From an uncultured Spirochaetota bacterium (GTDB lineage: Bacteria > Spirochaetota > Spirochaetia > Treponematales > Rectinemataceae): a stretch of 64,000 nt of DNA. The DNA lies in NCBI GenBank assembly GCA_903821875.1, contig CAIJMU010000057.1, positions 1-64,000 of the forward strand, in the 5' to 3' direction. Positions 17,959-60,379 of this stretch are shown here, piece after piece (the first letter of the stretch is position 1; each line of letters begins with the position of its first letter). The notes under the pieces are model-generated. The model was not told the origin of the DNA, made no database searches, and was given only the letters and a program-made list of their open reading frames with translations. A program made the position numbers and the translations under genes.

Positions 17959-19380
17959 ATGGTAGAACCTGAACGCATCGCGACACTCACGGGGGCTGGA
18001 CCTGCAAGGGGAAGCCACGTCCTCTACTGGATGCAGCACAGCCAGCGGGCCATCGACAATCCCGCCCTGACCTTCGCCCTCACCGAGGCTCAGCGCCTGG
18101 ACCTTCCCCTCCTTGTCCTCTTCGTACTCCTCGACTATCCCGCAGCCACCGCTGTCCACTACCGATTCATGCTCGCGGGTCTCCGCGAGACCGCAGGAGC
18201 ACTCCGCGCCAGGGGCATCGGTTTCGCGCTCAAGCGGGCACCGGCCGGGGATCCGGTTCCCCTCGTCGCCGCCTGGGCCGGCGGGAAGCAGGGGGGCGGG
18301 GGGCGGGAAAATGGGGACAGACACGACCAAAGCGCCCTCGTCGTCTGTGACCGTGGCTACCTCCGCCACGAGGAAGCGTGGAGGCTGGCTTTGGCAGAGC
18401 GGCTCGCTGTGCTGGGGATTCCCCTGCTCCGCGTCGATGCCGACACGGTTGTCCCCGCCGATGCAGCCAGCCTGAAGCTCGAGTGGTCGGCCGCGACGCT
18501 CAGGCGGAAGATCGAGGGCGCTATCCATCATTACGCCCAGCCCTCGGTCTTTCGGGGGAAGATCCGCGACGCGGCCAGCCTCGGCGTGGACCAGGGGGCC
18601 AACAAGGAAGACAGCCTCTTCGAGGCCTACGCGAAACCAGAGGATCCCGCCCACCGTGGCGACCCTTCACCCGGGCAGCAGCCTTCCCTCCGGCCCGGAA
18701 GTGCGGCCGCCCGCGTAGCCTTCAAGAGCTTCCTCGACCGGCTCGACCGCTACGAGGGGGACAGGAACGATCCCAACCTCGAGGGTACAAGCGGCATGAG
18801 TCCCTACCTGCATTTCGGGCAGATCTCGTGCGCCGCGATGGCGCGCTCTGCGCTTGAGCGTGGGGGGCCGGGAGCCGCAGCCTTTGTCGAACAGCTGGTC
18901 GTGCGAAGGGAGCTCGCCATCAACCTCTGCCTGCGGGAGCCCAACTATGACGTCTATGACCATGCTGTCCCGGAGTGGGCCAGGCGGAGCCTCGCCCAGG
19001 CTGCCGGGGACAGGCGTCCGTGGATCCACGGACGGGAGACCCTCGAGGCGGCAGCGACCCACGATCCCTACTGGAACGCTGCCCAGAACCAGCTGATCCG
19101 GACAGGAATCATCCACAACTACATGCGCATGTACTGGGGCAAGAAGATCATCGAGTGGAGCGCAAGCCCAGAGGAGGCCTTCGCGACAGCCCTCTCTCTC
19201 AATGACCGCTACGCCCTCGACGGGCGGGATCCCAACGGCTACGCCGGCGTCGCCTGGTGCTTCGGCCGCCACGACCGTCCCTGGTCCAGGCGGACAGTGT
19301 TCGGGTGTATCCGGTACATGAACGAAGGTGGGCTCAAGCGCAAGTTCGACCGCGAAGCCTACGCCCGCCGCTGGTCCTGA
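17959..19380 (+). CDS. Class II CPD deoxyribodipyrimidine photolyase
   Basis: 473-residue flavoprotein that would reverse UV-induced cyclobutane dimers using light. The C-terminal FAD/DNA-binding half carries class II signatures: NYMRMYWGKKIIEW, NDRYALDGRDPNGYAGVAWCFG and HDRPWSRRTVFGCIRYMN. The N-terminal antenna domain (WMQHSQRAIDNPAL) is also class II-like. ATG 17959 was chosen because homology begins at about residue 15 (GSHVLYWMQHSQR) and the longer frame overlaps the divergent cNMP gene. A Gly-rich linker near residues 110-125 (GGKQGGGGRENGDRHD) contains the 12-mer repeat at 18313 and looks inserted between two structural elements. Presence suggests at least periodic light exposure. Confidence 0.95.
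   Translation: MVEPERIATLTGAGPARGSHVLYWMQHSQRAIDNPALTFALTEAQRLDLPLLVLFVLLDYPAATAVHYRFMLAGLRETAGALRARGIGFALKRAPAGDPVPLVAAWAGGKQGGGGRENGDRHDQSALVVCDRGYLRHEEAWRLALAERLAVLGIPLLRVDADTVVPADAASLKLEWSAATLRRKIEGAIHHYAQPSVFRGKIRDAASLGVDQGANKEDSLFEAYAKPEDPAHRGDPSPGQQPSLRPGSAAARVAFKSFLDRLDRYEGDRNDPNLEGTSGMSPYLHFGQISCAAMARSALERGGPGAAAFVEQLVVRRELAINLCLREPNYDVYDHAVPEWARRSLAQAAGDRRPWIHGRETLEAAATHDPYWNAAQNQLIRTGIIHNYMRMYWGKKIIEWSASPEEAFATALSLNDRYALDGRDPNGYAGVAWCFGRHDRPWSRRTVFGCIRYMNEGGLKRKFDREAYARRWS
18313..18324 (+). repeat. 12-mer GGGGACAGACAC, copy inside photolyase gene
   Basis: Perfect copy, read in the frame giving GDRH within a Gly-rich linker. Confidence 0.85.
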
Positions 19381-19466
19381 GGGACCCGGTTTTCCTTCCC
19401 CTTTCTCCCGGGCGGTGTATTGGCGGAACGACTCCCTGATGGCATACTGGTCCTTCGGGAGGAGCG

Positions 19467-23831: not shown

Positions 23832-23931
23832 CGAAGTGCCTGCATGGCTTGCAGCTTTCCCGCCTCGGCAGCCGCCTCTGCCTGGCATCCTGGATGCAGG
23901 TTTTCAAATGCATTCCATTGAATCTTAGCCG

Positions 23932-26100: not shown

Positions 26101-26103
26101 AAG

Positions 26104-26475: not shown

Positions 26476-26516
26476 ATGAATGCGCCTGAGGCGCCCGAGG
26501 CAGGCTGCCTGCCGGA

Positions 26517-27007: not shown

Positions 27008-27303
27008 CTAACTTTCAATGCAATAGCGTTCGAGCTTGTTGTAGAGCTGGCGACCTCTGATACCGAGCCATTCGGCAGCCAGGCTTCTGTTGCCTCCGGC
27101 CCGTCCCAGGACCTCGCGGAGATGCGCTTCCTCGTGGAGGGCCAGGAAGCTGGCTAGGTTCGAGGATTGGGGCAGGAACTGGGGGACAGACACCCATGGA
27201 TATCCTCGCAGCGATCCCGGAGGGGAGGAACGTCGATCCTGATGACGTTGAGGCGGTAGTACAGGTCTTCCCGAAATCGACCCGCACGCACCTCGAGAGC
27301 CAT
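27008..27303 (-). pseudogene. Remnant of an NtrC-family sigma-54 activator
   Basis: Two disconnected pieces remain. Minus-strand 27303 to about 27196 encodes [18 protein letters not shown]...[10 protein letters not shown], a conserved stretch of the AAA+ sigma-54 interaction domain. About 27166 to 27008, in another frame, encodes a Fis-type helix-turn-helix (HEEAHLREVLGRAGGNRSLA...RGRQLYNKLERY). The roughly 100 residues that normally separate them and the whole N-terminus are missing. A GGGGACAGACAC copy sits precisely at the junction (27182-27193). Confidence 0.8.
27182..27193 (+). repeat. 12-mer GGGGACAGACAC at deletion junction in regulator remnant
   Basis: Perfect copy located between the AAA+ fragment and the HTH fragment of the NtrC-like pseudogene. 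Confidence 0.85.
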
Positions 27304-28349: not shown

Positions 28350-29336
28350 TCATCCAGCCTCGCGGCAGAAAGCAAGGCAGAAATCTTCCATGGCACGAAG
28401 GGCATCGGGTTCAAGGCATTCGATGCAGTCCTGGGGACTGTGGGTGAGGGCCCAGGTCCCAGGCCAGGCTGGGCCAAGAAGCTCCGCGCCTGGCAGGAGG
28501 GCCAAACCCGAGACCGCGCGCGAAAGTCGCTCCGCCTCCGACGCGGGCAGGAGACTGATGCCGACCGAGGGAAGTCCTGCAAGCGAGAAGCCCAGATCAT
28601 CCGACCAGGGCAGGGGCAGCTCCAGTGGCTCACCGATGCCTGCCTTGACCGCTGCCCGGCGCAGCGCGGTGACTGTCCCCGCAAGAATCGCTGCACCCTC
28701 GGGATCCTCCCCCGGCGCAAAGGCCCGCCGGGCAGAGGTAGAAAGCAGGAGCCGCGAACCCCTCCCTACGACATCCAGGACAAGAATCGAGGGCCGGGTC
28801 GGCCACTTCCCCGGTGTCTGTCCCCCTGCTGAGGGTGTCTGTCCCCCTCGGAGAGCTGTCTGTCCCCCTCCGAGGATCGACCTGAGGCCGAGGCCAAGGG
28901 AATAGGACCCCTGTGAGAGCGCGCCTTCCGTGGCGGGAGCCTCCTCGCCATCGGTGAACAGGATGAGGACGCCTCCTCGCTGGCTTTTTCCATCCCCGCT
29001 TCGGTGTCTGTCCCTGTTCTTGCCCAGGCGCGAACTGCCCAGATGAGCCGCCACGCGAACAAGGACGAGGCAGGCGGCCGAGTTGTCGAGGGCGCCGGGG
29101 CTCTCAGCCACGCGGTCGTAGTGGGCGACGAGGATGACGGCCGGCTTTCCATGGCAGGCCCGCACGAGGAGGTGACGGCGTCCGGCAATGGCCAGGACCT
29201 GGCCTGAGATCCCCCTCGATGCGAGCATTGTGGAAAGGAGTGAGAGACGATCGGCCTCTGGAGCAAGAAAGGCACGGAAATCCGGGCCAAAGGGGTCGGT
29301 CTCGGAGTCAGGTGGCTCCCTGCCTCCTGGGCTCAC
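28350..29336 (-). CDS. M28-like zinc aminopeptidase
   Basis: 328 residues with M28 metal-site motifs: AHYDR, GALDNSAA (bridging Asp), FTDGEE (catalytic Glu plus ligand), LDVVGRG (Asp ligand) and a C-terminal His (ALTHSPQD). There is no signal peptide. Between the catalytic Glu loop and LDVVGRG lies a low-complexity insertion with three 7-residue repeats beginning GGQT, encoded by the 21-bp array at 28814-28876; a further imperfect copy is at 29004-29015. The start is GTG 29336 overlapping the lacI stop (GTGA), so it is probably translated with the repressor and belongs to the sugar operon, although its role there is unclear. Confidence 0.82.
   Translation of the reverse strand: MSPGGREPPDSETDPFGPDFRAFLAPEADRLSLLSTMLASRGISGQVLAIAGRRHLLVRACHGKPAVILVAHYDRVAESPGALDNSAACLVLVRVAAHLGSSRLGKNRDRHRSGDGKSQRGGVLILFTDGEEAPATEGALSQGSYSLGLGLRSILGGGQTALRGGQTPSAGGQTPGKWPTRPSILVLDVVGRGSRLLLSTSARRAFAPGEDPEGAAILAGTVTALRRAAVKAGIGEPLELPLPWSDDLGFSLAGLPSVGISLLPASEAERLSRAVSGLALLPGAELLGPAWPGTWALTHSPQDCIECLEPDALRAMEDFCLAFCREAG
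28814..28876 (-). repeat. Tandem 21-bp array built on the 12-mer repeat, inside peptidase gene
   Basis: Copies begin at 28814, 28835 and 28856 (period 21). The first two contain a perfect GTGTCTGTCCCC; the third has one mismatch. The array is in frame (7 residues per unit). A fourth, imperfect 12-mer (one mismatch) lies at 29004-29015 in the same gene. Confidence 0.9.
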
Positions 29337-33896: not shown

Positions 33897-33908
33897 GGGG
33901 ACAGACAC
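33897..33908 (+). repeat. 12-mer GGGGACAGACAC, intergenic copy
   Basis: Perfect copy between the importer promoter and the HD-GYP terminator. Confidence 0.85.
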
Positions 33909-33979: not shown

Positions 33980-34750
33980 TCAGCGGTCGCGCATCCGGAC
34001 GAGGACCTTGAGGAAACGGTCCATGTTCCCTGACATGGCCTCGACCAGCTTGGGATCGAAGTGGTGTCCGGCTGAGTCCTTGACGAACTCGACCGTCTTC
34101 TCGAGGGTCCAGGCAGCCTTGTAGGACCGGGGGTTGGACAGGGAGTCGAAAACATCACAGAGGGCAACGATTCGCCCGGAAAGGGAGATGGCCGCACCCT
34201 TGAGTCCGCGTGGGTAGCCACTGCCGTCCCAGCGCTCGTGGTGCTCGAGGGCTATCGTGGCAGCGCGCTGGAAAAGGGGCCCGTGATGCCTGGCCAGGAT
34301 ATCGTGGCCGATCTGGGTATGGTCTCGCATCATCTCGAGTTCCTCGGTGGTGAGAGCGCCGGGTTTGTGGATGATGTAGTCGGAGAGGCCGATCTTGCCG
34401 ATGTCGTGCATCGGAGCCGCCTCGGTCAGGAGGAGGGCCTCCTTGGCATCGAGGCCAAGTATCTCGGCGAAGATGCGCGCGAACTCCGCTACCCGCTCGA
34501 CATGGGTTTCGGATTCCCTGGTCCTGAACTCCACGAGCTCACTCAGGGTGAAGATGATCTCTTTCTGGGAGCCGATGAATTCTTCGCGCAGGGCTTCGAG
34601 CCTGGAATCCGGATCGTCAGATACCGGAGCTGGAACCGCGGAGGCTGCGGCCGTGAGGGAGGCGAGTTTTCCACGAGCGGAAAGCCAGAGACCCAAGAAC
34701 ACGAGTGCGAGGATCGAAGCTGCAAGGATTGCGATCAAGCTTGACGCCAC
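33980..34750 (-). CDS. Membrane-anchored HD-GYP phosphodiesterase
   Basis: 256 residues: one N-terminal membrane helix (about 3-25), a linker with coiled coil, then an HD-GYP domain with the HD pair (APMHDIGKIGL), HHERWDGSGYP and the distal HTQIGHDIL and DVFDSL motifs. HD-GYP proteins degrade cyclic di-GMP and sometimes other cyclic dinucleotides. Start GTG 34750 has AAAGGAG upstream. No GGDEF partner is nearby. It appears monocistronic with its own terminator. Confidence 0.92.
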   Translation of the reverse strand: MASSLIAILAASILALVFLGLWLSARGKLASLTAAASAVPAPVSDDPDSRLEALREEFIGSQKEIIFTLSELVEFRTRESETHVERVAEFARIFAEILGLDAKEALLLTEAAPMHDIGKIGLSDYIIHKPGALTTEELEMMRDHTQIGHDILARHHGPLFQRAATIALEHHERWDGSGYPRGLKGAAISLSGRIVALCDVFDSLSNPRSYKAAWTLEKTVEFVKDSAGHHFDPKLVEAMSGNMDRFLKVLVRMRDR

Positions 34751-34909: not shown

Positions 34910-36037
34910 TCAGGTCCGGAGACGCCGGAACCTGAAAAGAAGGAATCCGACAAGGAACCAGGCAGCGGTGAGGAGGATCAGGGCGATAAGCTCGAAGGCC
35001 AGGTCCCCAGGCCCGAGCCCGTAGTTCATCATTCCCTCGAGGGCTTTAACGCCGAAGGACAGGGGAAAGAGGCTTCCCACGCCAAGCCGGTGCCCTGCCA
35101 GCGTCATGAGGTCAGCTGAAGGCAGGGGCATGACGCCTGAAAACAGTAGAAGGAAGAAATAGGGGAAGTTCCCGATGATCATCACGTCCTTGACCGAGCT
35201 GCAGAAGCCAGCGGTGAGCAGCCCGAAGGCGATGACCGACAGGGAGGAGAGTCCCGACACAAGGAGGATCGCGGGCAGGGGCGCTTGCAGCTTCCAGCCC
35301 AGGGCCATGGCCGTAAGCAGCGCGAGGAATATGCACCCAAGGCTCACGAGGAGCTGGTTGAGGGCTGCAGCCGATAGATACTCGGCCAGCGAAAGCCGGG
35401 ACAACAGGAGGCGCTTGATCGTGCCCTTCTCGGTTTCGCGCACGAAGAGGGCAGCCGAGGTGAAGAGCACCGTAATGATGGAAAGGATGAGGAGGCTGGG
35501 CATCATGGCGTCGAAGGGCGAAAGCTTGCCTTCGGGCCGGACCGACCGCTCCTCGATAGTGATGACGCCCTCGCGTCCGGTCAGGGCCGCGACCCAGGAC
35601 TCGGAAACCGTGTAGGTCAGGGCGAGGAGCATGGCATATTTTGGAGAGGCGGGATCGCCCAGAAATCGCAGGCTGGGCCGGGAACCAGCTTCGATGCTCG
35701 CCGGGAACTCCGGAGGAAGGACGAGCACGAGGTCGACGAGTCCCTTTTGGGCATCTTCGATGCCCTGGCTCTCGGAGGAAAGCTTAAACACCTTGATCCG
35801 GGGGCCATCGTCCCCGAAGCTCGCAGCCTCGAGGGCGGCGCTGAGGGCCCTTCCCAGGGTGTCTGTCCCCCCAGGGGCCTCATCGATCACCGCAAGCCGG
35901 TATTCCGTCGGCCGTGCGTCGAAGGCCACATGGAAGATGAGGACAAAGAAAGGGGCAAAGGCCAGGGCCAGGAGGAGGATGGGCCACTCTCTCAGGCTCT
36001 CGCGGCAGAACTTGCCGAAGACTGACAAGAACCTCAT
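34910..36037 (-). CDS. ABC-2 type transporter permease
   Basis: 375 residues: an N-terminal membrane helix (about 17-40), a large extracytoplasmic domain (about 45-200) and five further helices (about 215-370), the layout of ABC-2 (YhbD/NatB-like) exporters. Its start overlaps the ATPase gene stop by four bases, so the two form one transporter. Substrate unknown; such pairs often handle drugs, antibiotics or lipids. A perfect 12-mer repeat (35859-35870) encodes GGTDT near residue 58. Confidence 0.9.
   Translation of the reverse strand: MRFLSVFGKFCRESLREWPILLLALAFAPFFVLIFHVAFDARPTEYRLAVIDEAPGGTDTLGRALSAALEAASFGDDGPRIKVFKLSSESQGIEDAQKGLVDLVLVLPPEFPASIEAGSRPSLRFLGDPASPKYAMLLALTYTVSESWVAALTGREGVITIEERSVRPEGKLSPFDAMMPSLLILSIITVLFTSAALFVRETEKGTIKRLLLSRLSLAEYLSAAALNQLLVSLGCIFLALLTAMALGWKLQAPLPAILLVSGLSSLSVIAFGLLTAGFCSSVKDVMIIGNFPYFFLLLFSGVMPLPSADLMTLAGHRLGVGSLFPLSFGVKALEGMMNYGLGPGDLAFELIALILLTAAWFLVGFLLFRFRRLRT
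35859..35870 (-). repeat. 12-mer repeat inside ABC-2 permease gene
   Basis: Perfect GTGTCTGTCCCC on the plus strand; read as GTDT in the gene sense. Confidence 0.85.
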
Positions 36038-36975
36038 TCGCGGAGCCCCCTGCCCGTCAGGTCGATGAACACATCCTCGAGGCTGCGCTTCCTCACCCTG
36101 AGCTCCTCGACATCCAGGGAGAGTTCCCGGGCGAGGGCGAGGACCCGCATGAAAGTGGAATCACCCTCCCTGGCCGCGATGACCAGCTTCCCGGCCTCCC
36201 TCGCGACCTCGAGGCCCTCGCCCTGGAGCCGCTCGACCAGTGTCTGTCCCCGTTCTCCGGCGTCCGTGGGGAGGCTGAGCTCAAGAAGACCCCCTGCCCC
36301 ACCCAGCTCCTTGAGCCGCCCTGGCGTGTCAACGACGAGAATGCGGCCCTGATCCATGATGGCTACGCGGTCTGAGAGCTTGTCCGCCTCCTCCATGTCG
36401 TGGGTGGTCAGGAGGATGGTGACCTCGTTCCGGATCGAGCGGAGGTAGTCGCGGACGAGGACCCGGCTCTGCGGATCAAGGCCGGCCTGGGGCTCGTCGA
36501 GGACGAGGAGCTCGGGCTCGTGGACGAGGGCGAGGGCGAGGTTGAGGCGGCGCTGCATGCCACCGGAGAGGGTCCGGGCTAGCCTGTTCCGCTTTTCGGC
36601 GAGGCCGAGGACCTCGAGGAGCTGCCCTGCCCGGAGGCGGGCCCGCGTGCCGGGCAGGTCGTACATCCTTGCCATGAAGACCAGCTGCTCCATGCAGGTC
36701 AGGGTATCCCAGACCATGATGGACTGGGGACAGAGACCGACAGAGCGGCCGGCTCCTGGAAGGCCCTGCCTCGTCGTAATCGTGATGGTTCCGGAATCAG
36801 GCTTCAGGAGACCGCAGAGCATGTTGATGGTCGTCGTCTTTCCAGCCCCATTGGGGCCGAGGAGGGCAAAGACCTCTCCCCGCCTGATCGACACTGAGAT
36901 CCCATCCACGGCGGTCACGGTGCCAAAGCGCCTGGAGAGAGCCTCGACCCTGACGATGTCAGCTGTCTCCGTCAC
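36034..36975 (-). CDS. ABC-2 type transporter ATP-binding protein
   Basis: About 313 residues with a canonical ABC ATPase: Walker A GPNGAGKTT, Q-loop LCPQS, signature LSGGMQRR, Walker B LLVLDEP, D-loop AGLD and switch His TTHDMEEAD, then a C-terminal extension typical of drug/lipid exporters. GTG 36975 has AAGGAGG upstream and was preferred to the longer frame. A 12-mer repeat (36240-36251) encodes GQT in the C-terminal extension, outside the catalytic core. Confidence 0.93.
   Translation of the reverse strand: MTETADIVRVEALSRRFGTVTAVDGISVSIRRGEVFALLGPNGAGKTTTINMLCGLLKPDSGTITITTRQGLPGAGRSVGLCPQSIMVWDTLTCMEQLVFMARMYDLPGTRARLRAGQLLEVLGLAEKRNRLARTLSGGMQRRLNLALALVHEPELLVLDEPQAGLDPQSRVLVRDYLRSIRNEVTILLTTHDMEEADKLSDRVAIMDQGRILVVDTPGRLKELGGAGGLLELSLPTDAGERGQTLVERLQGEGLEVAREAGKLVIAAREGDSTFMRVLALARELSLDVEELRVRKRSLEDVFIDLTGRGLRE
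36240..36251 (-). repeat. 12-mer repeat inside ABC ATPase gene
   Basis: Perfect GTGTCTGTCCCC on the plus strand; read as RGQTL in the gene sense. Confidence 0.85.
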
Positions 36976-36991
36976 TTCGCGCCTCCTTATC

Positions 36992-39115
36992 CTACTTGCA
37001 CTCCTCGACCGCCGGTCCCGCGAACTGGGATTCGTGGAGCTCCGCATAGAAGCCGCACTTCGCGATCAGCTCTTCGTGCGTGCCCTGCTCCACGATCGAG
37101 CCCGAGTCCATGACAAGTATGAGTTCCGCGTCGCGGATTGTCGACAGCCTGTGGGCGATCACGAAGCTCGTCCGTCCCTCCATCAGTGTGGTCATGGCCT
37201 TCCTGATGAGGACCTCGGTGCGCGTATCCACCGAGCTCGTAGCCTCGTCGAGGATGAGGATGGCTGGGTCGGCCAGGATGGCCCTCGCGATCGTGAGGAG
37301 CTGGCGCTGGCCCTGGGAGATGTTGCCTGCCTCCTCGTCGAGGACCGTGTCATAGCCCAGGGGAAGGGCACGGATGAAGTGGTCGGCGTAGGCTGCCTTG
37401 GCAGCGCTGTGGATATCCTTTTCGGTCGCGCCTTCGCGGCCGTAGGCAATGTTGTCGCGGATGGTGCCGGTGAAGAGCCAGGTGTCCTGGAGCACCATGC
37501 CGAAGAGACCCCGGAGGCCACGCCGCGGCATCTCGCGGATATCCCTGCCGTCGATCAGGACCGCGCCGGCATCGATTTCACGGAAGCGCATGAGGAGGTT
37601 GACCAGGGTGGTCTTGCCCGCTCCCGTGGGACCGACGATGGCGATCATGTGGCCCGGGCGGGCATCGAGGGACAGGCCCTCGATGAGTGGCTTGTCGGCC
37701 ACGTAGCGGAAGGACAGGCCCTCCACCCTGACATGGCCGGACACCGGCGAAGGAAGCGCCGCCCCTGGCCTGTCAGAGGCCTCCTCCGCCTCATCGAGGA
37801 CCTCGAAGACGCGCTCGGCACAGGCCAGGGTCGACTGGATCACGTTGGCGATGTTCGCTGTCTGGGCGATGGGCTGGGCGAAGGAGCGCGAGTACTGGAT
37901 GAAGGCGGTGATGCCTCCAATTGTGAGCTTTCCCTTGGTGAGCCACAGGCCGCCCACGACCGATATGAGCACATAGCCGAGGTTGCCTATGAAGTTCATG
38001 AGGGGGAACATCACCCCCGATATGAACTGGGCGCGCGACGAAGCGCTCCGGAGACGATCGTTGATGTCCCTGAACTTCTGGAGCGATCGCCTTTCGAGGC
38101 TGTAGGCCCGCACGATGGCGTGGCCCGAGTACATCTCCTCGATGTGGCCGGACAGGTCCCCGAGCTCCTTCTGCTGCTCCTTGAAGTATTTCTGCGAGCG
38201 CTTGGCAATAAGGACGGTGGCGACGACGTAGAGCGGGAGCGTCGCCAGCACGATGGCGGTGAGGAGGGGGCTGATCGTCAGCATCATGATGATGAAGCCC
38301 ACGAGCTGGATGACCGAGGTGATGGCCTGCACGATGCTCTGCTGGAGGGTCGTCGAGATGGTGTCGATGTCGTTGGTCACGCGCGACAGGAGGTCGCCGT
38401 GGGGCCGGCTGTCGAGGTAGGCCAGGGGGAGGCGGTCGATCTTGGACTGGGCCTCGCGCCTGAGCTTCGAGACCGTGTCCTGGGCGACCGTGGACATCAC
38501 CCACTGGGTAATGAACATGAAGACCGAGGACAGGGCGTAGAGGGCAAGGAGGAAAAGGAGTATGGAACCAATTGCTGCATAATCGATCCTGCCGCCGGTC
38601 TCGCGTATCGCACGCACCGCATCGGCCATCTGCTCGGGGGTGAAACCGGGCTTTGCCCCGGGAGCCGCGGGCATCTTCCCGGACAGGGCGGCGAGCTTCT
38701 CCACGATGGCGGCGCGCTCGTTGTCGTCCCTGGCCTCGGCCAGGGGCGTGATCCCGAGCTGCGACAGCGTGGGGCCAGCCTTCTCGGAGAGCTTTCCGAT
38801 GCGGTCGAGGGTCATGCGGGCGATGAAGGCGTCCTTGAGCTTGTCCATGGCATGGCCCTGGATCTTGGGCGACACGACCTGGAAGGACATCGAGGCTATG
38901 GCCAGGAGGACGACAGCCACAAGGCGCGGCGCGTGGGGACGGAGGTAGCCCAGGAGGCGTTTGAACGTCGCGCCGAAATCCTTGGGCTTCTGCCCGCCAG
39001 CGCCCATGTGCCCCATGGGGCCGCCAAATCCGGGACCGCCACCATCACGACGCGCCCCGGGTCCCACGACCGGGCCGGGGGATCCGGAGGAACGCTTCGA
39101 ACTGTTGTCGCTCAC
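36992..39115 (-). CDS. Heterodimeric ABC exporter subunit, catalytically competent half (TM288-like)
   Basis: 707 residues: a Gly/Pro-rich cytoplasmic N-terminus (1-45), exporter membrane domain (about 60-400) and NBD (about 450-690) with Walker A GPTGAGKTT, signature ISQGQRQ, Walker B LILDEATSSVD and switch His IAHRLS. Between the first two helices is an extracytoplasmic insertion of about 90 residues (100-185) not present in standard MsbA-type exporters. It overlaps its partner gene by four bases. Probably a multidrug or lipid exporter of the TM287/288 kind. Confidence 0.92.
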   Translation of the reverse strand: MSDNSSKRSSGSPGPVVGPGARRDGGGPGFGGPMGHMGAGGQKPKDFGATFKRLLGYLRPHAPRLVAVVLLAIASMSFQVVSPKIQGHAMDKLKDAFIARMTLDRIGKLSEKAGPTLSQLGITPLAEARDDNERAAIVEKLAALSGKMPAAPGAKPGFTPEQMADAVRAIRETGGRIDYAAIGSILLFLLALYALSSVFMFITQWVMSTVAQDTVSKLRREAQSKIDRLPLAYLDSRPHGDLLSRVTNDIDTISTTLQQSIVQAITSVIQLVGFIIMMLTISPLLTAIVLATLPLYVVATVLIAKRSQKYFKEQQKELGDLSGHIEEMYSGHAIVRAYSLERRSLQKFRDINDRLRSASSRAQFISGVMFPLMNFIGNLGYVLISVVGGLWLTKGKLTIGGITAFIQYSRSFAQPIAQTANIANVIQSTLACAERVFEVLDEAEEASDRPGAALPSPVSGHVRVEGLSFRYVADKPLIEGLSLDARPGHMIAIVGPTGAGKTTLVNLLMRFREIDAGAVLIDGRDIREMPRRGLRGLFGMVLQDTWLFTGTIRDNIAYGREGATEKDIHSAAKAAYADHFIRALPLGYDTVLDEEAGNISQGQRQLLTIARAILADPAILILDEATSSVDTRTEVLIRKAMTTLMEGRTSFVIAHRLSTIRDAELILVMDSGSIVEQGTHEELIAKCGFYAELHESQFAGPAVEECK

Positions 39116-45884: not shown

Positions 45885-47132
45885 CTACGGCAGGAAGCGG
45901 CTGCGGACCGACCAGAGGCCGGCAGCCGGGTTGGGCACATAGAATGCTTCCCCGCCTTCCACCTGGTTCAGGCCTGGCACGAGCTCTGGCACTTTCCATC
46001 GGGCTTCCTCGGCAGCCAGGTCGCGCCACCGGAAACCGGCAGCCTCCACCTCCTCCTGTGAGAGCCCGCCCGTGCAGTAGGAGATAGAGAAGCGGCCTTC
46101 GCTTGAGCCGTGGATGAGGTGGGCGGCTGCGGAAAGGTTGGCAGCCAGGTCGGGATCGGCGGCGACAGCGGCCAGCGTGGTGTCTGTCCCCCGATAGCCG
46201 TACTTCCGGATCAGGCGGTCGATGGCCGGGTCCTCCCCGAAGCGCTGGACGCCCGGAGCCAGGATGATGAGTTCGCCGCCATCAGCCATGGCCATCCGCA
46301 AGCGGTAGATGGCCTTGTTTCCAAGCCAGGTGGACTTGAACTCGTGGGGATCGAGGCGGACGACAGCCCGCGTGATGGGCTTGTCCAGGAGCTGGACGTT
46401 CAATCGCTGCGAAAGGGCGGCAGCCTCCTCAAGGCAGCTTCGGCCCTCCCCCGCAAAAACCCCCTTAAGGGCATCTGTCTGCCCCGATTCGTCAGGTCCG
46501 ACAACGGTGAGGGCCCAGAAGAGGGGGAGGGCCTGGGCGAATTCGCGCTCAGCATAGTCAAAGAGGGCGCGCACCGGGGTATCGAGCCTCCCCATGATCC
46601 GCTCCATCCCGAAAACGGCACCAAGGAAGTGACTTCGGTTGATGCCATCGACCCCGCCTGTTCCAACAAAGACATTTTTAGCGTGGTTGGCCATCCCAGC
46701 CACCTCGTGGGGTACTACCTGCCCAACTGAAACAATGAGGTCATGACCGCCCTCCGCCACAAGGCGATTGACCTCGGCAGGCCAGTCGTAGGAGAGCTTG
46801 CCCTCGGAGAGTTCCTGCACAAATTTGACGGGTACCCGACCCAGGGTGACGAGATCCTTCCTCCAATCATGGACGCGGAAGAGGGAGGCTTGCACAGCGG
46901 GGTACATTGCAGTGATTTCGGCCGATGACATGGCTTCGTGCGTGCCGAGGGCCGGCAGGACATCGGTCAAGGCTCCTCCGTAGTACTCGCAAAGAAGGCC
47001 GAGCACGATCCCGGCCCTCGATCTCCCCCGGGTCGCATCCGGGACCAGGGCCAGAACCCGCCTGCGCCGGCCGAGACGGTCGAGGGCGGGGAATAGGCTT
47101 TCACGGACAAGCTCAGTCTCAGGATCGCTCAT
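45885..47132 (-). CDS. LarA-family (nickel-pincer lactate racemase-like) protein
   Basis: 415 residues matching the DUF2088/LarA family: PDATRG near residue 32, QVVPHEVAGMANHAKNVFVGTGGVDGINRSHFLGAV (cofactor-binding Lys and catalytic His region), and the C-terminal HLIHGSSEGRFSISYCTGGLSQEEVE. LarA racemises lactate with a nickel pincer nucleotide; homologues act on other 2-hydroxy acids, so the substrate is open. No larB/C/E maturation genes are in the window. A perfect 12-mer repeat (46190-46201) encodes GTDT in an alpha-helical linker without obvious length change. Confidence 0.85.
   Translation of the reverse strand: MSDPETELVRESLFPALDRLGRRRRVLALVPDATRGRSRAGIVLGLLCEYYGGALTDVLPALGTHEAMSSAEITAMYPAVQASLFRVHDWRKDLVTLGRVPVKFVQELSEGKLSYDWPAEVNRLVAEGGHDLIVSVGQVVPHEVAGMANHAKNVFVGTGGVDGINRSHFLGAVFGMERIMGRLDTPVRALFDYAEREFAQALPLFWALTVVGPDESGQTDALKGVFAGEGRSCLEEAAALSQRLNVQLLDKPITRAVVRLDPHEFKSTWLGNKAIYRLRMAMADGGELIILAPGVQRFGEDPAIDRLIRKYGYRGTDTTLAAVAADPDLAANLSAAAHLIHGSSEGRFSISYCTGGLSQEEVEAAGFRWRDLAAEEARWKVPELVPGLNQVEGGEAFYVPNPAAGLWSVRSRFLP
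46190..46201 (-). repeat. 12-mer repeat inside larA-like gene
   Basis: Perfect GTGTCTGTCCCC on the plus strand; GTDT in the gene sense. Confidence 0.85.
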
Positions 47133-47180: not shown

Positions 47181-47235
47181 GGGGACAGACACCATTGTCC
47201 GGGCATTCTGGCCAGCATGCAGGGTGTCTGTCCCC
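47181..47235. repeat. Inverted pair of 12-mer repeats (REP-like hairpin)
   Basis: GGGGACAGACAC at 47181-47192 and its exact complement at 47224-47235, separated by 31 bases. The arms extend slightly (ACGGGGACAGACACC versus GGTGTCTGTCCCCGT), so the RNA or single-stranded DNA can form a stem of about 15 bp. Located between the divergent larA-like and ferredoxin-domain genes. Confidence 0.9.
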
Positions 47236-47354: not shown

Positions 47355-48242
47355 ATGGCCAAGCGGCAGATCATCGAAATCGACGAAGAAACATGCACGG
47401 GCTGCGGCGACTGTGCGACAGGCTGCCCTGAAGGCGCGCTCAGGATCATAGAGGGTAAGGCACGCATGGTCGGTGAGAATCTCTGTGATGGACTGGGGGC
47501 CTGCATCGGCACCTGCCCCGTCGGTGCGATCACCATCGTTGAGCGGGAGGCGGAACCCTACGACGAGGCCAAGGTCATGGAAGGCATCGCAAAGCTTGGC
47601 CACAAAGTAATCGCCGCCCACCTCGAACACCTGTTGCATCATGGCCAGGATCTCTATGTCCGGCAGGCCCTGGCATGGATGGAGGGCCAGGGCATCGAAA
47701 CGAAGGGCTTCAGCTTCGGGAAACAGGGAAAACAGGGACAGACAGCGCATTTCGATGCCTGCCCAGGTTCAGCTCCCCGTCGGTTCACGCCCCTCGCACC
47801 TGGCAAGACCCAGGAAACGGTGTCTGTCCCCGTGCAGGCTGGTCTTCAAGCTGGCGGCACAACCCCTTCGGCCCTCGCCTCCTGGCCGATCCAGCTCCAC
47901 CTCATCAACCCGAAGGCGACGCAGTTCGCCGACGCCGACATACTCATTGCGGCTGATTGCACAGCCTTTGCCCTTGGCAGCTTCCATGCCGAGCTCTTGG
48001 CCGGAAAGAGCCTCGTCATCGCCTGCCCCAAGCTCGACCAGGGTCGCGAGGTCTATGTCGACAAACTAACCGCCCTTTTTGCGAACGCAAGGTCGGTTAC
48101 GGTCGCTATCATGGAAGTACCCTGCTGCTCTGGCCTCCTCAAGCTCGCCCTCGAAGCACGGGAAGCAGGCCCCCGAAAGCCGGCGCTGGACACAGTAGTC
48201 GTGGGAATCCAGGGGGAAGTGCGGAGGCGCGAGAACCGCTAG
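47355..48242 (+). CDS. 4Fe-4S dicluster-domain protein of the anaerobe type, function unknown
   Basis: 295 residues: two adjacent 4Fe-4S motifs near residues 14-55 (CTGCGDCATGCPEGA and CDGLGACIGTCPVGA), an AEPYDE linker and helical segment, then a C-terminal domain with WPIQLHLINP, ADILIAADCTAFA and MEVPCCSGL. This architecture is common in strict anaerobes but its reaction is not established. GGAGG precedes ATG 47355. The linker between DACPGS and WPIQLHL carries extra sequence bounded by a degenerate (about 47736-47755) and a perfect (47820-47831) 12-mer repeat. Followed by tatD and tcdA-like genes. Confidence 0.85.
   Translation: MAKRQIIEIDEETCTGCGDCATGCPEGALRIIEGKARMVGENLCDGLGACIGTCPVGAITIVEREAEPYDEAKVMEGIAKLGHKVIAAHLEHLLHHGQDLYVRQALAWMEGQGIETKGFSFGKQGKQGQTAHFDACPGSAPRRFTPLAPGKTQETVSVPVQAGLQAGGTTPSALASWPIQLHLINPKATQFADADILIAADCTAFALGSFHAELLAGKSLVIACPKLDQGREVYVDKLTALFANARSVTVAIMEVPCCSGLLKLALEAREAGPRKPALDTVVVGIQGEVRRRENR
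47820..47831 (-). repeat. 12-mer repeat inside ferredoxin-domain gene
   Basis: Perfect GTGTCTGTCCCC; translated VSVPV in the linker of the gene. Confidence 0.85.
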
Positions 48243-52226: not shown

Positions 52227-52263
52227 TCAGGGCCTCTTTGATCGCAAGGATAGCGTCCGCAAA

Positions 52264-52290
52264 GCCGGGTGTCTGTCCCCGCAACCCGGC
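52264..52290. repeat. Hairpin with the 12-mer repeat in its loop
   Basis: GCCGGGT (52264-52270) pairs with ACCCGGC (52284-52290); the perfect 12-mer GTGTCTGTCCCC (52269-52280) starts inside the stem and fills the loop. Lies between the PD-(D/E)XK gene and the amidohydrolase gene. Confidence 0.85.
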
Positions 52291-52324
52291 TCCGAGCCCC
52301 AGCGCTGCCTCGAAAAGGTGGACT

Positions 52325-53188: not shown

Positions 53189-53228
53189 CGCCAACTATCG
53201 CCTGCGAAGCTTGCAATCGGCAAGCATG

Positions 53229-53275
53229 GGGGACAGACACTCCAATCTGGATGCCGCCTGGCCGGGGACAGGCAC
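53229..53275 (+). repeat. Direct pair of 12-mer repeats upstream of formate dehydrogenase gene
   Basis: Perfect GGGGACAGACAC at 53229-53240 and a one-mismatch copy at 53264-53275, 35 bases apart in the same orientation, in the intergenic region. Confidence 0.85.
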
Positions 53276-53333
53276 CAGCGAAGCCCGCCGGGATCAGTTG
53301 CCGCGCAGGGCATGAATTTGCATACTCTCGGAC

Positions 53334-56075
53334 ATGATCACCCTGACCATCGACAACAGAAGCGTGTCTGTCCCCTCCGGGACGACCGTGCTTGAAGCTG
53401 CCCGGACCATTGGAGCGGAGATCCCCACGCTTTGTTGGCTCGAGGGCCTCGATGCCTGGGGCTCCTGCAGGATCTGTATGGTCGAGATCCAGGGACATCG
53501 GGGAGGCATGGCACCCTCCTGCGCCACTCCGGCAGCCGAAGGAATGGTCGTCCAGACCTCGACTCCGGAAGTGAGGAAATTGCGCACACAGGTCCTGGAG
53601 ATGCTTCTGGCGACCCACCACGCTGACTGCTTCAACTGCAGGAAAAACGGGGCCTGCGAGTTGCTCGACTATTGCCGCGAGTATGGGGTGGTGAAGGTCG
53701 AGACAGGGCTCGAAGTCCGCCGCCACGTGCCAGACACGAGCAATCCCTTCTTCAATGTCGACAGGAACAAGTGCATCCTCTGCGGTCGCTGCGTACGCAT
53801 CTGCGGCGAGGTCCAGTCATCCCACGTGATAGATTTCACCGGGCGGGGACAGTCAACCGCGATCAAGCCCGATTTTGGTGACAGGATGGGCGAGTCCTCA
53901 TGCGTGTCATGTGGCAACTGTGTCTCGGTGTGCCCAGTCGGAGCCCTCCTGCCCAAACCCACGGTCTTTCCCGGGGCCCACCTTGTGGAAAAGCGGACTA
54001 GGACGGTCTGCGGGTATTGCGGGGTCGGCTGCGAACTCTTCATCGAGACCCGCGGAAACAAGGTCATCAACGTGATGCCTGCCCAGGGTCCCGCGAACAA
54101 GGGAATCCTCTGTGTGAAGGGAAAATTCGCCTGGCAGTTCATCGGACACCCTGACCGCCTGGGACAGCCGCTCCTCCGGAAGGAAAGAGCACTGGAGCCG
54201 GTATCCTGGAAGGAAGCGCTCGACGCCTACGAAGCGGCCCTGCGCCATGCTCTTGCAAAGGGCGGACCCGCTTCGGTGGCAGGACTTTCCTCCGCGCGCT
54301 GCACAAACGAGGAGAACTACCTCTTCCAGAAATTCTTCCGCGCGGCGGTAGGAACGAACAACATCGACCACTGCGCCCGACTCTGCCACGCCTCCTCCGT
54401 GACGGGACTTTCGAAGACCCTCGGCTCTGCCGCCATGACCGGCTCTATAGAGGATCTCGATCTCGCGGACCTCATCTTCATCACTGGCTCGAACACGACC
54501 GAAACCCACCCCGTCATAGGATCGCGCATCCGGAGGGCAGTCGATCGCGGAGCGAAGCTGATCGTTGCGGAACCCCGACGCATCGAGCTGGCTGTGCACG
54601 CCGATCTTTTCCTCCGCCTGAAGCCTGGCTCCAATATTGCGCTCTTCAACGCGATGGCTTTCTCGATCATCGAGGAAGGACTGGCGGCGCAGGACTTCAT
54701 CGCCGCCCGGACAGAGGGCTTCGAGGAACTCTCCGCCTTCCTGTCAGGCAACGGAGATGCATCTCGGGCCTGGACTCCTGAACGGGCCGAGGGAATCTGC
54801 GGAGTGCCAGCCGGTGACATCAGGAAGGCGGCCCGGATGTACGCCAGGGCGAAGGCAGCAAGCGTCTGCTACGCCATGGGCGTCACCCAGTTCCACAATG
54901 GTACCGATGGAGTCGTCGCACTCTCGAACCTAGCCCTGGTCGCAGGCCAGGTCGGGCGGCCTGGGGCAAGCCTCAACCCACTGCGCGGCCAGAACAATGT
55001 CCAGGGTGCCTGCGACATGGGAGCGCTCCCCGACGTCCTCCCTGGCTACCGCAAGGTAGCAGACCCCGCCGTACGGGCGGCCATCGCCGCAGTCTGGGGC
55101 AGGGAACCACCTTCGGCGCCCGGCCTTCCCGCCACCGAGATGGTTGAGGTAGCTGAGCAAGGAGGTATCGGATTCCTCCATATCATGGGCGAGAACGCAG
55201 CCCTATCGGATCCCGACATCGCCAGGACACGGAAGGCGTTTGGGAAAGTGGGCTTTCTCGTTGTCCAGGATCTCTTCCTCACGGAAACCGCCGAGCTTGC
55301 CGACCTCGTGCTTCCCGCAGCATGTTTCGCTGAAAAGGACGGCACTTTCGCCAATACCGAGCGCAGGATACAGCGCGTCCGCAAGGCCGTCGAAGCTCCG
55401 GGGCAGGCACGGAGCGACCTCGATATCCTCTCGGAACTCCTCGCACGCTTCGGCCTCCCGCTTGAGGACAGCAGTCCCCAGGGGGTGTTTGCCGAGCTCT
55501 GCAGGGCAACGCCTATCTACGCGGGCATGGAGTGGTCGCGGATCGGTGATGAAGGACTCCAGTGGCCCTGTCCGACTGCAGGGCATCCAGGTACCGCAAG
55601 GCTTTACACAGAGGCATTTTCGCGAGGCAAAGGTCGCTTCATTCCGGTCGAGTGGGAAGAGCTGGCCGAGCCTGCGGACAATGAGTATTCCCTAACCATG
55701 ATTACTGGCAGACTCCTTGCCCAATATCACACGCGAACCATGACTGGTAGGTCACCTGCCATAGAGAAAATAGCCGGCACCGCCCGGGTAGAAATATCGC
55801 CCCATTCAGCCGAAGTAGCAGGTATTTTGGACGGAGACCGCGTGAGGCTGAGCTCTCGCCGGGGATCGATCACAGCCATAGCCGCGATAAGCGACAGGGT
55901 CGGTGATGGTGTGGTCTTCCTACCCTTCCATTTCAGGGATTCCGCTGCAAATCTCCTCACCAGCGCGGATGCCCTCGACCCTGAATCGAGGATTCCGGAG
56001 TTCAAAGCCACGGCAGTCAGGATCATGAAGGAGGAGCCCGAGGCTCGGATGAAAGCCCCCGCCACCCCCTCGTGA
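53334..56075 (+). CDS. fdhA: Formate dehydrogenase catalytic subunit with NuoG-like N-terminus (Cys type)
   Basis: 913 residues. N-terminal 2Fe-2S ferredoxin domain (about 1-80), His/Cys-rich NuoG-like 4Fe-4S segment (HHADCFNCRKNGACELLDYC), two 4Fe-4S motifs (CILCGRCVRIC and CVSCGNCVSVCPVGA), then the molybdopterin domain with its own cluster (CGYCGVGCEL). The catalytic position is Cys351 (DHCARLCHAS, codon TGC), not selenocysteine. The C-terminal MPT-binding domain (LTMITGRLLAQYHTRTMTGRSP) is complete. Such proteins oxidise formate or reduce CO2 with a bis-MGD Mo/W centre. No NuoF-like, hydrogenase or fdhD gene is adjacent. mobA follows with a GTGA overlap. A 12-mer repeat (53364-53375) lies in codons 11-14. 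Confidence 0.9.
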   Translation: MITLTIDNRSVSVPSGTTVLEAARTIGAEIPTLCWLEGLDAWGSCRICMVEIQGHRGGMAPSCATPAAEGMVVQTSTPEVRKLRTQVLEMLLATHHADCFNCRKNGACELLDYCREYGVVKVETGLEVRRHVPDTSNPFFNVDRNKCILCGRCVRICGEVQSSHVIDFTGRGQSTAIKPDFGDRMGESSCVSCGNCVSVCPVGALLPKPTVFPGAHLVEKRTRTVCGYCGVGCELFIETRGNKVINVMPAQGPANKGILCVKGKFAWQFIGHPDRLGQPLLRKERALEPVSWKEALDAYEAALRHALAKGGPASVAGLSSARCTNEENYLFQKFFRAAVGTNNIDHCARLCHASSVTGLSKTLGSAAMTGSIEDLDLADLIFITGSNTTETHPVIGSRIRRAVDRGAKLIVAEPRRIELAVHADLFLRLKPGSNIALFNAMAFSIIEEGLAAQDFIAARTEGFEELSAFLSGNGDASRAWTPERAEGICGVPAGDIRKAARMYARAKAASVCYAMGVTQFHNGTDGVVALSNLALVAGQVGRPGASLNPLRGQNNVQGACDMGALPDVLPGYRKVADPAVRAAIAAVWGREPPSAPGLPATEMVEVAEQGGIGFLHIMGENAALSDPDIARTRKAFGKVGFLVVQDLFLTETAELADLVLPAACFAEKDGTFANTERRIQRVRKAVEAPGQARSDLDILSELLARFGLPLEDSSPQGVFAELCRATPIYAGMEWSRIGDEGLQWPCPTAGHPGTARLYTEAFSRGKGRFIPVEWEELAEPADNEYSLTMITGRLLAQYHTRTMTGRSPAIEKIAGTARVEISPHSAEVAGILDGDRVRLSSRRGSITAIAAISDRVGDGVVFLPFHFRDSAANLLTSADALDPESRIPEFKATAVRIMKEEPEARMKAPATPS
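53364..53375 (-). repeat. 12-mer repeat at the start of fdhA
   Basis: Perfect GTGTCTGTCCCC, translated VSVP in the first beta-hairpin of the 2Fe-2S domain, with no apparent insertion. Confidence 0.85.
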
Positions 56076-56764: not shown

Positions 56765-57307
56765 TTAACCGAACGGCCTTTCCACAGGGAAGGGCAGGGC
56801 TAGAAGTCCGTGCGCTGGGAAGAGCGGCACTACCCACGCAGGCCGAGGTCCGAGAATGGTCCGTATCCCTGCCCTGTCATGCCAGAGCCCTGAATGCTCC
56901 CACTCCCAGGCGTTTGAAACCAGGCCAGCCTTGACAGGATTCTCATCGATGTACTGGAAAGTACGGATGAGCCCTCCGATCCCCTGAATGATCCAGGAGT
57001 GGAACCGGTCTCCCCAGAAATGCCCCGTCCAGCCCCGCTTCTTGTTGTAGGCCTTGGCAAAGTTGCCGAGCTGCCATTGCATTATTTCGGAAAGACTTAC
57101 ACCTGGAGCCGGGCGGACCATGAGGTGGATGTGGTTCCCCATTATGCAGAAATTCATGACCTCGAATGCGTACTTCTTCTTGCAGCGCAGAAGGAGTTGG
57201 AGAAATAGCATTCGCACCTCTGCCCTATCGAGAAGCATCTCCCCTCGGTTAGCTCGGGCTGTCACATGGTACCAGGCATTGTCCTGGAGTTGGCGTGGTC
57301 GTCTCAT
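56765..57307 (-). CDS. REP-associated Y1-type transposase (RAYT)
   Basis: 180 residues of the HUH/Y1 transposase family: YHVTARANRGEMLL at the N-terminus, the metal-binding HxH in MGNHIHLMVRP, and the segment RTFQYIDENPVKAGLV following the HFWGDRFHSWII stretch. RAYTs are single-copy host-tamed relatives of IS200/IS605 transposases that act on short palindromic repeats. The active tyrosine is probably that in FQYIDENPVKAGL. Its stop abuts the convergent mobA stop with no spacer. No terminal repeats of an insertion sequence are visible. Confidence 0.9.
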   Translation of the reverse strand: MRRPRQLQDNAWYHVTARANRGEMLLDRAEVRMLFLQLLLRCKKKYAFEVMNFCIMGNHIHLMVRPAPGVSLSEIMQWQLGNFAKAYNKKRGWTGHFWGDRFHSWIIQGIGGLIRTFQYIDENPVKAGLVSNAWEWEHSGLWHDRAGIRTILGPRPAWVVPLFPAHGLLALPFPVERPFG

Positions 57308-57391
57308 GCTCTCTCATACGCCTGAGATGTCGCTCCATGATTGCGTTCCAGTTGAAGAATCGGAAAAAAGAAGTTCCCATCGAAGTTCCAT

Positions 57392-57403
57392 AGGGACAGA
57401 CAC
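57392..57403 (+). repeat. Near-copy of the 12-mer repeat upstream of the RAYT gene
   Basis: AGGGACAGACAC (one mismatch), 85 bases upstream of the RAYT start codon, where self-associated repeats of RAYT genes are usually found. Confidence 0.7.
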
Positions 57404-57423
57404 TGATTTCTAGGTTCGTGACC

Positions 57424-58683: not shown

Positions 58684-58780
58684 GGCGCGTCATGGTAACG
58701 GGGATGGGTAATTTGGTCGATATAAAAACCCTTCTCCTTGCGGCTGGCAAGCATCGGGTGTACCATTCGACAGGTACCCT

Positions 58781-60379
58781 ATGAAAGCAGCACAATCATG
58801 TACGGTCTTCCTACTTAATGGAGACTCCATTTGTACGACAGCTTGGCCCGGCACACCGCTTATTGACTTCCTCCGCGAAGAAAAAGGGCTCACCGGAACC
58901 AAGGAAGGATGCAGGGAAGGCGATTGCGGCGCCTGTGCCGTGCTCGTCGGGGAACAGGTAGACATCGAGGGGACCCTCGGAAGCACAGCTCGCTATCGCG
59001 CCCACCCCTCCTGCCTCATGCGTATCGGCGAACTGGAAAACCAGCATCTCATCACGATCGAAGGACTGCGCCAGGCGGCTGAGTCCTCAGGCCTCGAAGA
59101 GGGCCTGACCCCGGTCATGCGCGCACTGTTCGATGAGAATGCCAGCCAATGCGGTTTCTGCAGCCCGGGCTTTGTCATCAGCCTCAGCGCATGGCTCCTC
59201 GAAGGGAGCCCCCTCACCCCGGAAGCTGCCGTGCGGGCGGTTGAAGGAAACCTCTGCCGCTGCACAGGCTATTCAGCCATACGGCGCGCGGCTGCCATCC
59301 TCGCCCGTGAGTTTTCGGATCTCCCAGCTGATCCGGTCGATCGCATAAGGACCCTATCCGCTGCAGGAGTGATTCCCATCTCGGCCCTTCGCTTCGCCAC
59401 CGCAGCTTTGCCAAGGGCTCCCTTCACGGGGACAGACACTGACAAATCAGTCCTCCAGTCTATCTCCACGGGGACAGACACCAAAAAATGGACCTTCCAG
59501 CCCCTCTCCACGGGGACAGTCACCGAAAAGCTGCTCCAGCCTCTCGTTCTCGGCGGAGGCACCGACCTTTCCGTGCGCCAGCCCCACCCCGAGCCCGGAC
59601 CTGCCGTTTTCTTCACGCGCTTGGACCGGGGCCTGGCGACCATCAGCGAGAAGGACGGCAGCGTCTCGATCGGGGCGGCAGTTACCATCCGGGATTTCTT
59701 CGGATCGCCCCTTGTCCGACGCTCAGTGCCCGGCATCGAAGCCTTCGAGGAGGGCTTCGCCAGCATCCTCATCAGGAACCGCGCGACAATCGCGGGGAAC
59801 ATCGTCAACGCCTCCCCTGTCGCGGACATGACTTCCATCCTCCTGGCCCTCGATTCGACGATACTGGTCGCGGATGCCTCGGGGACAGACACTGGCCGGT
59901 CCATGCCGCTTTCCTCCTTCTTCAGGGGTTACAAGTCGATCGCCCTCGAAGCCGGCCAGATCGTCACGACGCTCAGCTTTGAAGCGCTCGGCTCCCACGA
60001 GCGCTTCCACTTCGCCAAGCTCTCCAAGCGCGAAAGGCTCGACATAGCCGCGGTCAATTCGGGGATCAGGATCGCCCTCGAAGCCGGCGGAAGGATGGTA
60101 CTGTCAGCATCCATTTCCGCAGGCGGGGTAGCGGCGGTCCCGCGTCTCCTCCCGAAGGCCTCCGCCACACTGGCTGGAGCTCCCCTCTCGGTCGAAACCG
60201 CCCTCGCTGCCGCGTACGCTGCAAGCGCTGAAATAGAGCCGATCGGCGATGTCCGGGGCTCAGCCGGCTACCGGAGGCTCGCCCTCGAACGCCTCATCCT
60301 CTCGCACTTCGTCTCGCTTTTCCCGGAGCTCGGCGAAGGCATTGGCGCTGCCCTCGAAGCCCAGGTAGGCTCCCGATGA
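58781..60379 (+). CDS. xdhA: Xanthine dehydrogenase small subunit (2Fe-2S plus FAD domains)
   Basis: 532 residues, fused FeS/FAD subunit. First 2Fe-2S cluster: CREGDCGACAVLVG; second: CGFCSPGF and CRCTGY. The FAD domain starts at PLVLGGGTDLSV and includes NRATIAGNIVNASPVADM. It passes electrons from the molybdenum site to NAD or another acceptor. The linker between the FeS and FAD domains (about residues 217-257) holds three 14-residue repeats starting TGTDT, encoded by a 42-bp array; a fourth 12-mer (59881) encodes GTDT inside the FAD domain. The ATG overlap with xdhB shows an operon. The start ATG has only a weak ribosome site. Confidence 0.92.
   Translation: MKAAQSCTVFLLNGDSICTTAWPGTPLIDFLREEKGLTGTKEGCREGDCGACAVLVGEQVDIEGTLGSTARYRAHPSCLMRIGELENQHLITIEGLRQAAESSGLEEGLTPVMRALFDENASQCGFCSPGFVISLSAWLLEGSPLTPEAAVRAVEGNLCRCTGYSAIRRAAAILAREFSDLPADPVDRIRTLSAAGVIPISALRFATAALPRAPFTGTDTDKSVLQSISTGTDTKKWTFQPLSTGTVTEKLLQPLVLGGGTDLSVRQPHPEPGPAVFFTRLDRGLATISEKDGSVSIGAAVTIRDFFGSPLVRRSVPGIEAFEEGFASILIRNRATIAGNIVNASPVADMTSILLALDSTILVADASGTDTGRSMPLSSFFRGYKSIALEAGQIVTTLSFEALGSHERFHFAKLSKRERLDIAAVNSGIRIALEAGGRMVLSASISAGGVAAVPRLLPKASATLAGAPLSVETALAAAYAASAEIEPIGDVRGSAGYRRLALERLILSHFVSLFPELGEGIGAALEAQVGSR
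59428..59553 (+). repeat. Tandem 42-bp array built on the 12-mer repeat, inside xdhA
   Basis: Units start at 59428, 59470 and 59512. Units 1 and 2 begin with a perfect GGGGACAGACAC, unit 3 with one mismatch (GGGGACAGTCAC). The rest of each unit is diverged but shares a CTTCCAGC/CTCCAG-like stretch about 25 bases in. In frame, 14 residues per unit. Confidence 0.9.
59881..59892 (+). repeat. 12-mer GGGGACAGACAC, second site in xdhA
   Basis: Perfect copy, encoding GTDT in the FAD domain. Confidence 0.85.

Follow-up and report, generated by a model that had tools for sequence, protein, structure and literature searches.

A short non-palindromic repeat clusters round a RAYT gene in a Spirochaetota genome and is probably its cognate mini-repeat

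Results

The repeat cluster and its transposase gene

The window analyzed here is the 64,000 nucleotides at positions 1–64,000 of contig CAIJMU010000057.1 (assembly GCA_903821875.1) from an uncultured bacterium of the Rectinemataceae (Spirochaetota, order Treponematales), and it belongs to the 84.6-kb contig C57 of a 4.68-Mb draft genome (G000; 193 contigs, 97% complete). It encodes a 180-residue Y1 transposase (P0001) of the type associated with repetitive extragenic palindromes (REPs), known as a REP-associated tyrosine transposase (RAYT), and the gene lies inside a cluster of copies of the 12-mer GGGGACAGACAC (Table 1). The evidence below makes it very probable that GGGGACAGACAC is the cognate mini-repeat of this RAYT and has spread chiefly in cis.

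The initial annotation had enumerated 17 exact copies of GGGGACAGACAC; every one is present, with one coordinate corrected from 46190 to 46180, and they show no strand bias within the window (eight plus, nine minus). Nine further copies carry one mismatch, giving 26 at ≤1 mismatch against a chance expectation of 0.40 (standard deviation 0.55, maximum 2; 100 dinucleotide shuffles). The first 18.3 kb hold no copy, as had been stated. On a gene map built from open reading frames rather than from annotation, 7 of the 17 exact copies are fully intergenic, compared with an intergenic share of 5.3% for the DNA between 18 and 60.4 kb (P ∼1e-5); the genic copies therefore number 10 and not 11 as claimed. 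The extended consensus S-GGGGACAGACAC-Y was right in outline, as only position −1 (C/G) and position +1 (mostly C/T) of the flanks are much informative.

Table 1. RAYT gene and GGGGACAGACAC copies in the window.
Feature	Position	Strand	Remark
RAYT (TnpAREP-like Y1 transposase), P0001, 180 aa	56765..57307	-	inside repeat cluster
AGGGACAGACAC, one-mismatch copy	57392..57403	+	∼85 bp upstream of RAYT start
Exact copy, peptide GDRH	18313..18324	+	inside ∼15–18-aa extra segment of photolyase-like protein; segment missing from 7 orthologues
Exact copy, intergenic	27182..27193	+	
Tandem array, 21-bp period	28814..28867	-	28814, 28835 exact; 28856 one mismatch
One-mismatch copy, peptide RDRH	29004..29015	-	second extra segment of M28 peptidase
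Exact copy, intergenic	33897..33908	+	
Exact copy, GTDT, ABC-2 permease gene	35859..35870	-	no orthologue aligned at site
Exact copy, RGQT, ABC ATPase gene	36240..36251	-	C-terminal variable part
Exact copy, Lar_N-domain gene	46180..46191	-	not insertion
55-bp intergenic element	47181..47235	.	two perfect inverted copies (47181 +, 47224 -)
Exact copy, intergenic	47820..47831	-	
Exact copy, intergenic	52269..52280	-	
Direct repeat, intergenic	53229..53275	+	53229 exact; 53264 one mismatch
Exact copy, VSVP, formate-dehydrogenase-like gene	53364..53375	-	near gene start; not insertion
Tandem array, 42-bp period	59428..59523	+	59428, 59470 exact; 59512 one mismatch
Exact copy, GTDT, molybdenum-hydroxylase FAD subunit	59881..59892	+	variable loop, same gene as preceding array; insertion ambiguous

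The RAYT gene provides the single match to PF01797 (Y1_Tnp) in G000 (E 6e-15, 55.8 bits, cut-off 23). Its product contains an HUH motif, NHIH (H59, H61), and a catalytic tyrosine, Y119, in the sequence YIDENP; H59, H61, Y119, N123, and P124 are invariant across 18 aligned proteins, which fits the class 2 signature Y---NP. Against the NCBIfam model for REP-associated tyrosine transposases (NF047646), P0001 scores 77.5 bits (E 9.5e-22), slightly under the curated cut-off of 80 bits. The sole solved structure related to it by sequence is that of Escherichia coli TnpAREP (4er8; E 4e-4). By way of comparison, TnpAY1 subclass 2.1 (Bertels group 1) has a C-terminal helix-turn-helix (HTH)-like domain and a median length of 238 residues; P0001 has 180 residues and no Pfam HTH match. 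The gene lacks the features of an IS200/IS605 insertion sequence, which is a multicopy, self-mobile element with subterminal hairpins: there is one copy in G000, the adjacent repeat copy has no hairpin, and the NF033573 score is below cut-off. Terminal inverted repeats (TIRs) flanking the window RAYT were sought and none were found.

Insertions and in-place copies within genes

Alignment of the host genes with orthologues, which the initial annotation had proposed, distinguishes two kinds of genic copy. Most of the testable copies, in the photolyase, M28 peptidase, and flavin adenine dinucleotide (FAD)-subunit genes, lie in in-frame extra segments that are missing from orthologues. The array of 21-bp period encodes GGQT repeats in a ∼25-residue insertion of the M28 peptidase, and the same-genus orthologue is without the insertion; the array of 42-bp period forms an in-frame extra linker in the molybdenum-hydroxylase FAD subunit that is missing from 16 aligned relatives. 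The two others align without gaps. At 46180, the comparison with seven orthologue loci shows GTDTT where the nearest and most other relatives have GTEAT, and 4 of the 12 bases are different from those in the same-genus genome G001; at 53364, VSVP stands against VTVP in solved formate dehydrogenases. The assignment of genic copies to linkers or variable loops holds for the most part and fails for these two, which occupy conserved positions. Both 12-mers are too exact for chance, yet neither is an insertion.

Distribution in the genome and in a same-genus relative

Exact copies of GGGGACAGACAC in G000 number 26, of which C57 holds 18, C166 five, C94 two, and C138 one, with none on other contigs; the reversed word occurs twice. 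Outside the cluster, the genome resembles background when one mismatch is allowed. Of the 26 copies, 9 fall within 10 kb of the sole RAYT gene of G000, against 0.11 expected; within 40 kb the number rises to 18, against 0.44 expected. Of 393 genomes drawn from across the phylum, 361 lack the word, as does G001, and among the literature searched no bacterial paper deals with the 12-mer itself.

The window between 34 and 58 kb is syntenic with contig C220 of G001, save one block swap. The syntenic 20.6 kb of G001 contain neither the repeat head GGGGACAG nor any copy of GGGGACAGACAC at ≤1 mismatch, while the matching part of the window has 16 occurrences of GGGGACAG. Between the orthologues of the two genes that neighbor the RAYT, G001 has a short gap and no RAYT. 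Its own RAYT, 61% identical to P0001, is located on a different contig and is preceded by CGGGACAGACAC and AGGGACAGTCAC. In the block swap (locus L050, against window positions 34000–58700), the order of 34–47 kb and 48–58.7 kb is exchanged; the ABC transporter genes at 34910–37047 are missing from contig C220.

A probable cognate word with tails specific to the locus upstream of related RAYT genes

An alignment-based profile scan of named genomes returned 418 relatives of the RAYT; a single-sequence scan of genome contigs with P0001 returned none. The best 80 of the 418 are spirochaetes wherever the group is named, two being titled only 'bacterium'. In the 1.11 Mb round the best-matching RAYT loci, GGGACAG occurs 850 times and its reversed control 191 times. 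Among these loci, 77 reach far enough upstream for the comparison, and in 55 of them a GGGACAG-like word stands no more than 220 bp upstream of the RAYT gene. Among 49 loci, 46 have a same-strand upstream copy, typically at −50 to −110 from the start, and 3 have an inverted partner downstream; these loci were preselected for GGGACAG, which inflates the first figure and not the second. Across further genera and families of the order, the word that lies 80–140 bp upstream of the conserved RAYT core is mostly also strongly repeated within 10 kb.

The repeated upstream words consist of GGGGACAG followed by AGC, ACC, TCC, or ACAC, and the tail differs among RAYTs. Separate RAYTs of one genome, G032, have separate tails (AGC and ACC). 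The RAYTs with the ACAC tail (those of G000 and G001, G082:C50, and G049:C48) form one group in the RAYT tree (support 89/93; 0 of 500 shuffles), the deeper joining of which is uncertain owing to long branches. Relatives that have the palindromic GTGTCWGACACC as their upstream and local repeat fall outside this group. A further dialect, GGGGACGGAG, is found upstream of, and repeated round, some RAYTs (L211, L214, L219, L230, L231, and L235).

The decay with distance recurs in other genomes. RAYT loci of three near-complete genomes are mostly rich in GGGGACAG, with up to 23 occurrences per 20 kb as opposed to 0–3 in control stretches. Of the 82 copies of GGGGACAGAGC in G048, 67 are no more than 50 kb away from one of four RAYTs, against 8.9 expected. 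In G041, a single RAYT has 14 of the 47 copies within 10 kb, against 0.23 expected; random centers match this in 0.2% of trials.

Across 849 copies, information stops ∼11–12 nucleotides into the unit, which is composed of a (G)GGGACAG head and a tail of 3–4 nucleotides. The unit contains no hairpin, and the predicted folding of a single-copy site is no better than that of shuffled sequences. Neighboring copies are arranged as 190 direct and 55 inverted pairs. Half of the direct-repeat spacings (95/190) are multiples of three, where one third is expected; this excess is as expected if many of the arrays sit within genes. For the inverted pair at 47181 and 47224, folding of a single strand gives a long hairpin with an energy of −21.9 kcal/mol (z −5.9).

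Discussion

Relation to known repeat systems

The system works like a REP-RAYT system and is filed as a variant of RAYT-associated repeats that is neither a REP or REPIN (REP doublet forming hairpins) nor a typical TIRtron, because the features that define those classes were looked for and are absent. It shares with REPs, bacterial interspersed mosaic elements, and REPINs with their TnpAREP (PMC2817692, PMC3116915, PMC8266576) a repeat family tied to a RAYT and a sequence that is specific to the gene. In contrast to the GT[AG]G foot and palindromic stem of REPs, the 12-mer has no GTAG or GTGG foot, no self-complementarity, and no information past ∼12 nucleotides; moreover, the spirochaete copies are single or in direct arrays and commonly intragenic, whereas REPs are mainly inverted pairs. 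The idea of locality is not new, as Nunvar et al. (2010) found over a third of Thauera REPs near the rayt gene and proposed their preferential formation there; the local bias is quantified here over several genomes.

The TIRtron, with its TIR-associated tyrosine transposase, TIRYT (Di Nocera et al., 2013; PMC3733652), likewise combines a RAYT-like gene without REPs and an adjoining repeat, and the head GGGGACAG fits its end consensus, GGGGWSAS. Some TIR families are also repeated in the genome. Quentin et al. (2018; PMC6006769) tentatively identified TIRYT with TnpAY1 subclass 2.1. The spirochaete unit differs in being only ∼12 nucleotides long, in clustering strongly round the gene with many intragenic copies and direct tandem arrays, and in that inverted repeats on both sides of the gene, the hallmark of a TIRtron, occur at 3 of the 49 selected loci and not near the window gene.

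Palindromic GTGTCWGACACC repeats, found in Treponema-like members of the order, are linked to the same RAYT family, have the same upstream position, and share the right half GACAC(C/T). They differ in being palindromic and in their number, with 114–156 matches on each strand in each of three genomes and none in G000, G001, or G004. In their carriers, G049, G076, and G082 (e.g., L034, L039, and L103–L111), they are tied to another branch of the RAYT family, and some GTGTCWGACACC copies form tandem arrays of ∼40-bp period (G082:C27:34074-35279). Rickettsia palindromic elements (RPEs) resemble GGGGACAGACAC as in-frame additions to protein-coding genes that are left intact; unlike it, RPEs are palindromic, CGTC-tagged, and without a dedicated transposase (PMC3733652). 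The new features are a word that is short and non-palindromic and has tails specific to the locus, its fixed upstream position, and a decay quantified in several genomes.

A model for local spread

TnpAREP cleaves and recombines single-stranded REP DNA (PMC8266576), and on the basis of this chemistry we infer that single-stranded copies of the word are the substrate of the RAYT, which catalyzes their spread. The HUH/Tyr enzyme would recognize the head, nick single-stranded DNA, probably at replication forks, and join copies to nearby single-stranded sites; its limited reach would keep the products local and so explain the bias toward the gene. Copies probably accumulate mainly in cis, in a cloud whose density falls off over tens of kilobases round the RAYT gene; they land in both orientations and are over-represented between genes. 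Genic copies would survive where the extra DNA is in frame and comes to lie in a loop, and copies probably often grow into short direct tandem arrays. The data themselves demonstrate the association, its specificity of dialect, the decay with distance, and the in-frame extra segments at several genic copies. A more speculative extension, to which we give little credence, is that the RAYT system, besides inserting, rewrites near-matching DNA in place, as natural short-patch editing whose targets are set by their distance from the gene of the enzyme. In this view, a repeat copy in the form of a short single strand might anneal close to the gene, at a site that it matches in part, and replace that site, as could have happened at 46180 and 53364.

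Several observations weigh against spread of GGGGACAGACAC by the window RAYT. The conserved unit is without a hairpin, unlike known TnpAREP substrates, and the two in-place genic copies are not insertions. The window RAYT's own upstream copy carries a mismatch and is in the opposite orientation to the gene, which sets it apart from most relatives. Eight of the 26 genomic copies are on contigs without a RAYT (C94, C138, and C166), where a tblastn search found no RAYT remnants; these contigs may be unlinked to C57 or merely unscaffolded. Elsewhere, five RAYT loci (L124, L127, and L134–L136) have no repeated upstream word, and of the three RAYTs in G041, two are without a GGGGACAG cloud. On contig C1 of G041, satellite clusters of GGGGACAGAGC are present at ∼508 kb, 964–976 kb, 3254 kb, and 3473 kb, most of them without an adjoining listed RAYT; they may be the marks of lost RAYT genes or of spread in trans.

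Alternative explanations

Since association alone cannot order events, the repeats could be the target of the RAYT and not its product, the genes being inserted into, or kept at, regions that were already repeat-rich; some insertion sequences do target REPs (PMC1525189). This order of events is improbable given that the syntenic region of G001 has neither RAYT nor repeats, that the dialects track the RAYT clade, and that most relatives keep the upstream copy at a conserved spacing and strand. Still less credible is the view that the contig, or part of it, is a contaminant or a horizontally acquired piece of a genome in which the repeat is genome-wide. The restriction of copies to four contigs and a GC content slightly above that of some other contigs would agree with such an origin, but the tetranucleotide profile of C57 resembles that of other G000 contigs, and a contaminant contig was rejected on this composition together with the synteny with G001. 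Additionally, the listed contamination of this metagenome-assembled genome is 0.3%, and in none of the genomes sampled from the phylum is the word spread genome-wide.

The initial annotation had offered two readings, a mobile mini-repeat and a selected genome motif. The latter, be it a DNA-uptake or chromosome-architecture sequence, a Chi/KOPS-like site, or a macrodomain site, would suit a word that is exact, short, non-palindromic, and found within genes in all frames, and a chromosomal domain could be marked by a motif of regional extent. DNA-uptake and architecture motifs are, however, spread over the genome in high copy number, and any such genome-wide signal is excluded because copies are confined to 4 of 193 contigs and are lacking in G001 and in 361 of the 393 genomes, and the genome count of 26 copies in 4.68 Mb led us to reject any genome-wide functional motif, which we consider extremely improbable. 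The absence of strand bias in the window, the intergenic enrichment, the in-frame extra segments, and a tail that varies between RAYT loci even inside one genome are also at odds with it. Equally hard to credit is an origin in protein selection, through favored GTDT or GGQT peptides or convergent codons. Several copies do belong to arrays within coding sequence, with periods of 21 and 42 bp, and two genic copies are at conserved codons (46180 and 53364); as a general account this reading is refuted by the seven intergenic copies and the antisense ones, with copies in all frames and on both strands and orthologues that do without the extra peptides. The mobile mini-repeat, on the other hand, is upheld by the intergenic enrichment, the in-frame extra segments, the clustering round the RAYT gene, and the absence from the syntenic region of the same genus.

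Implications for Y1 transposases

Published surveys report no REP-like repeats for TnpAY1 subclasses 2.1 and 2.3 and leave open the substrate of TIRYT-like enzymes. A large Spirochaetota RAYT clade has a recognizable short cognate word, with a conserved upstream position, locus dialects, and decay with distance, which suggests that RAYT-type enzymes seed short repeats, even within genes, mostly near their own gene. Whether repeats are made by domesticated Y1 transposases, and why they arise close to the gene, can thereby be recast as testable predictions of substrate, specificity, and locality. Repeats this short can remodel proteins via in-frame extra segments, and searches based on palindromes would miss them.

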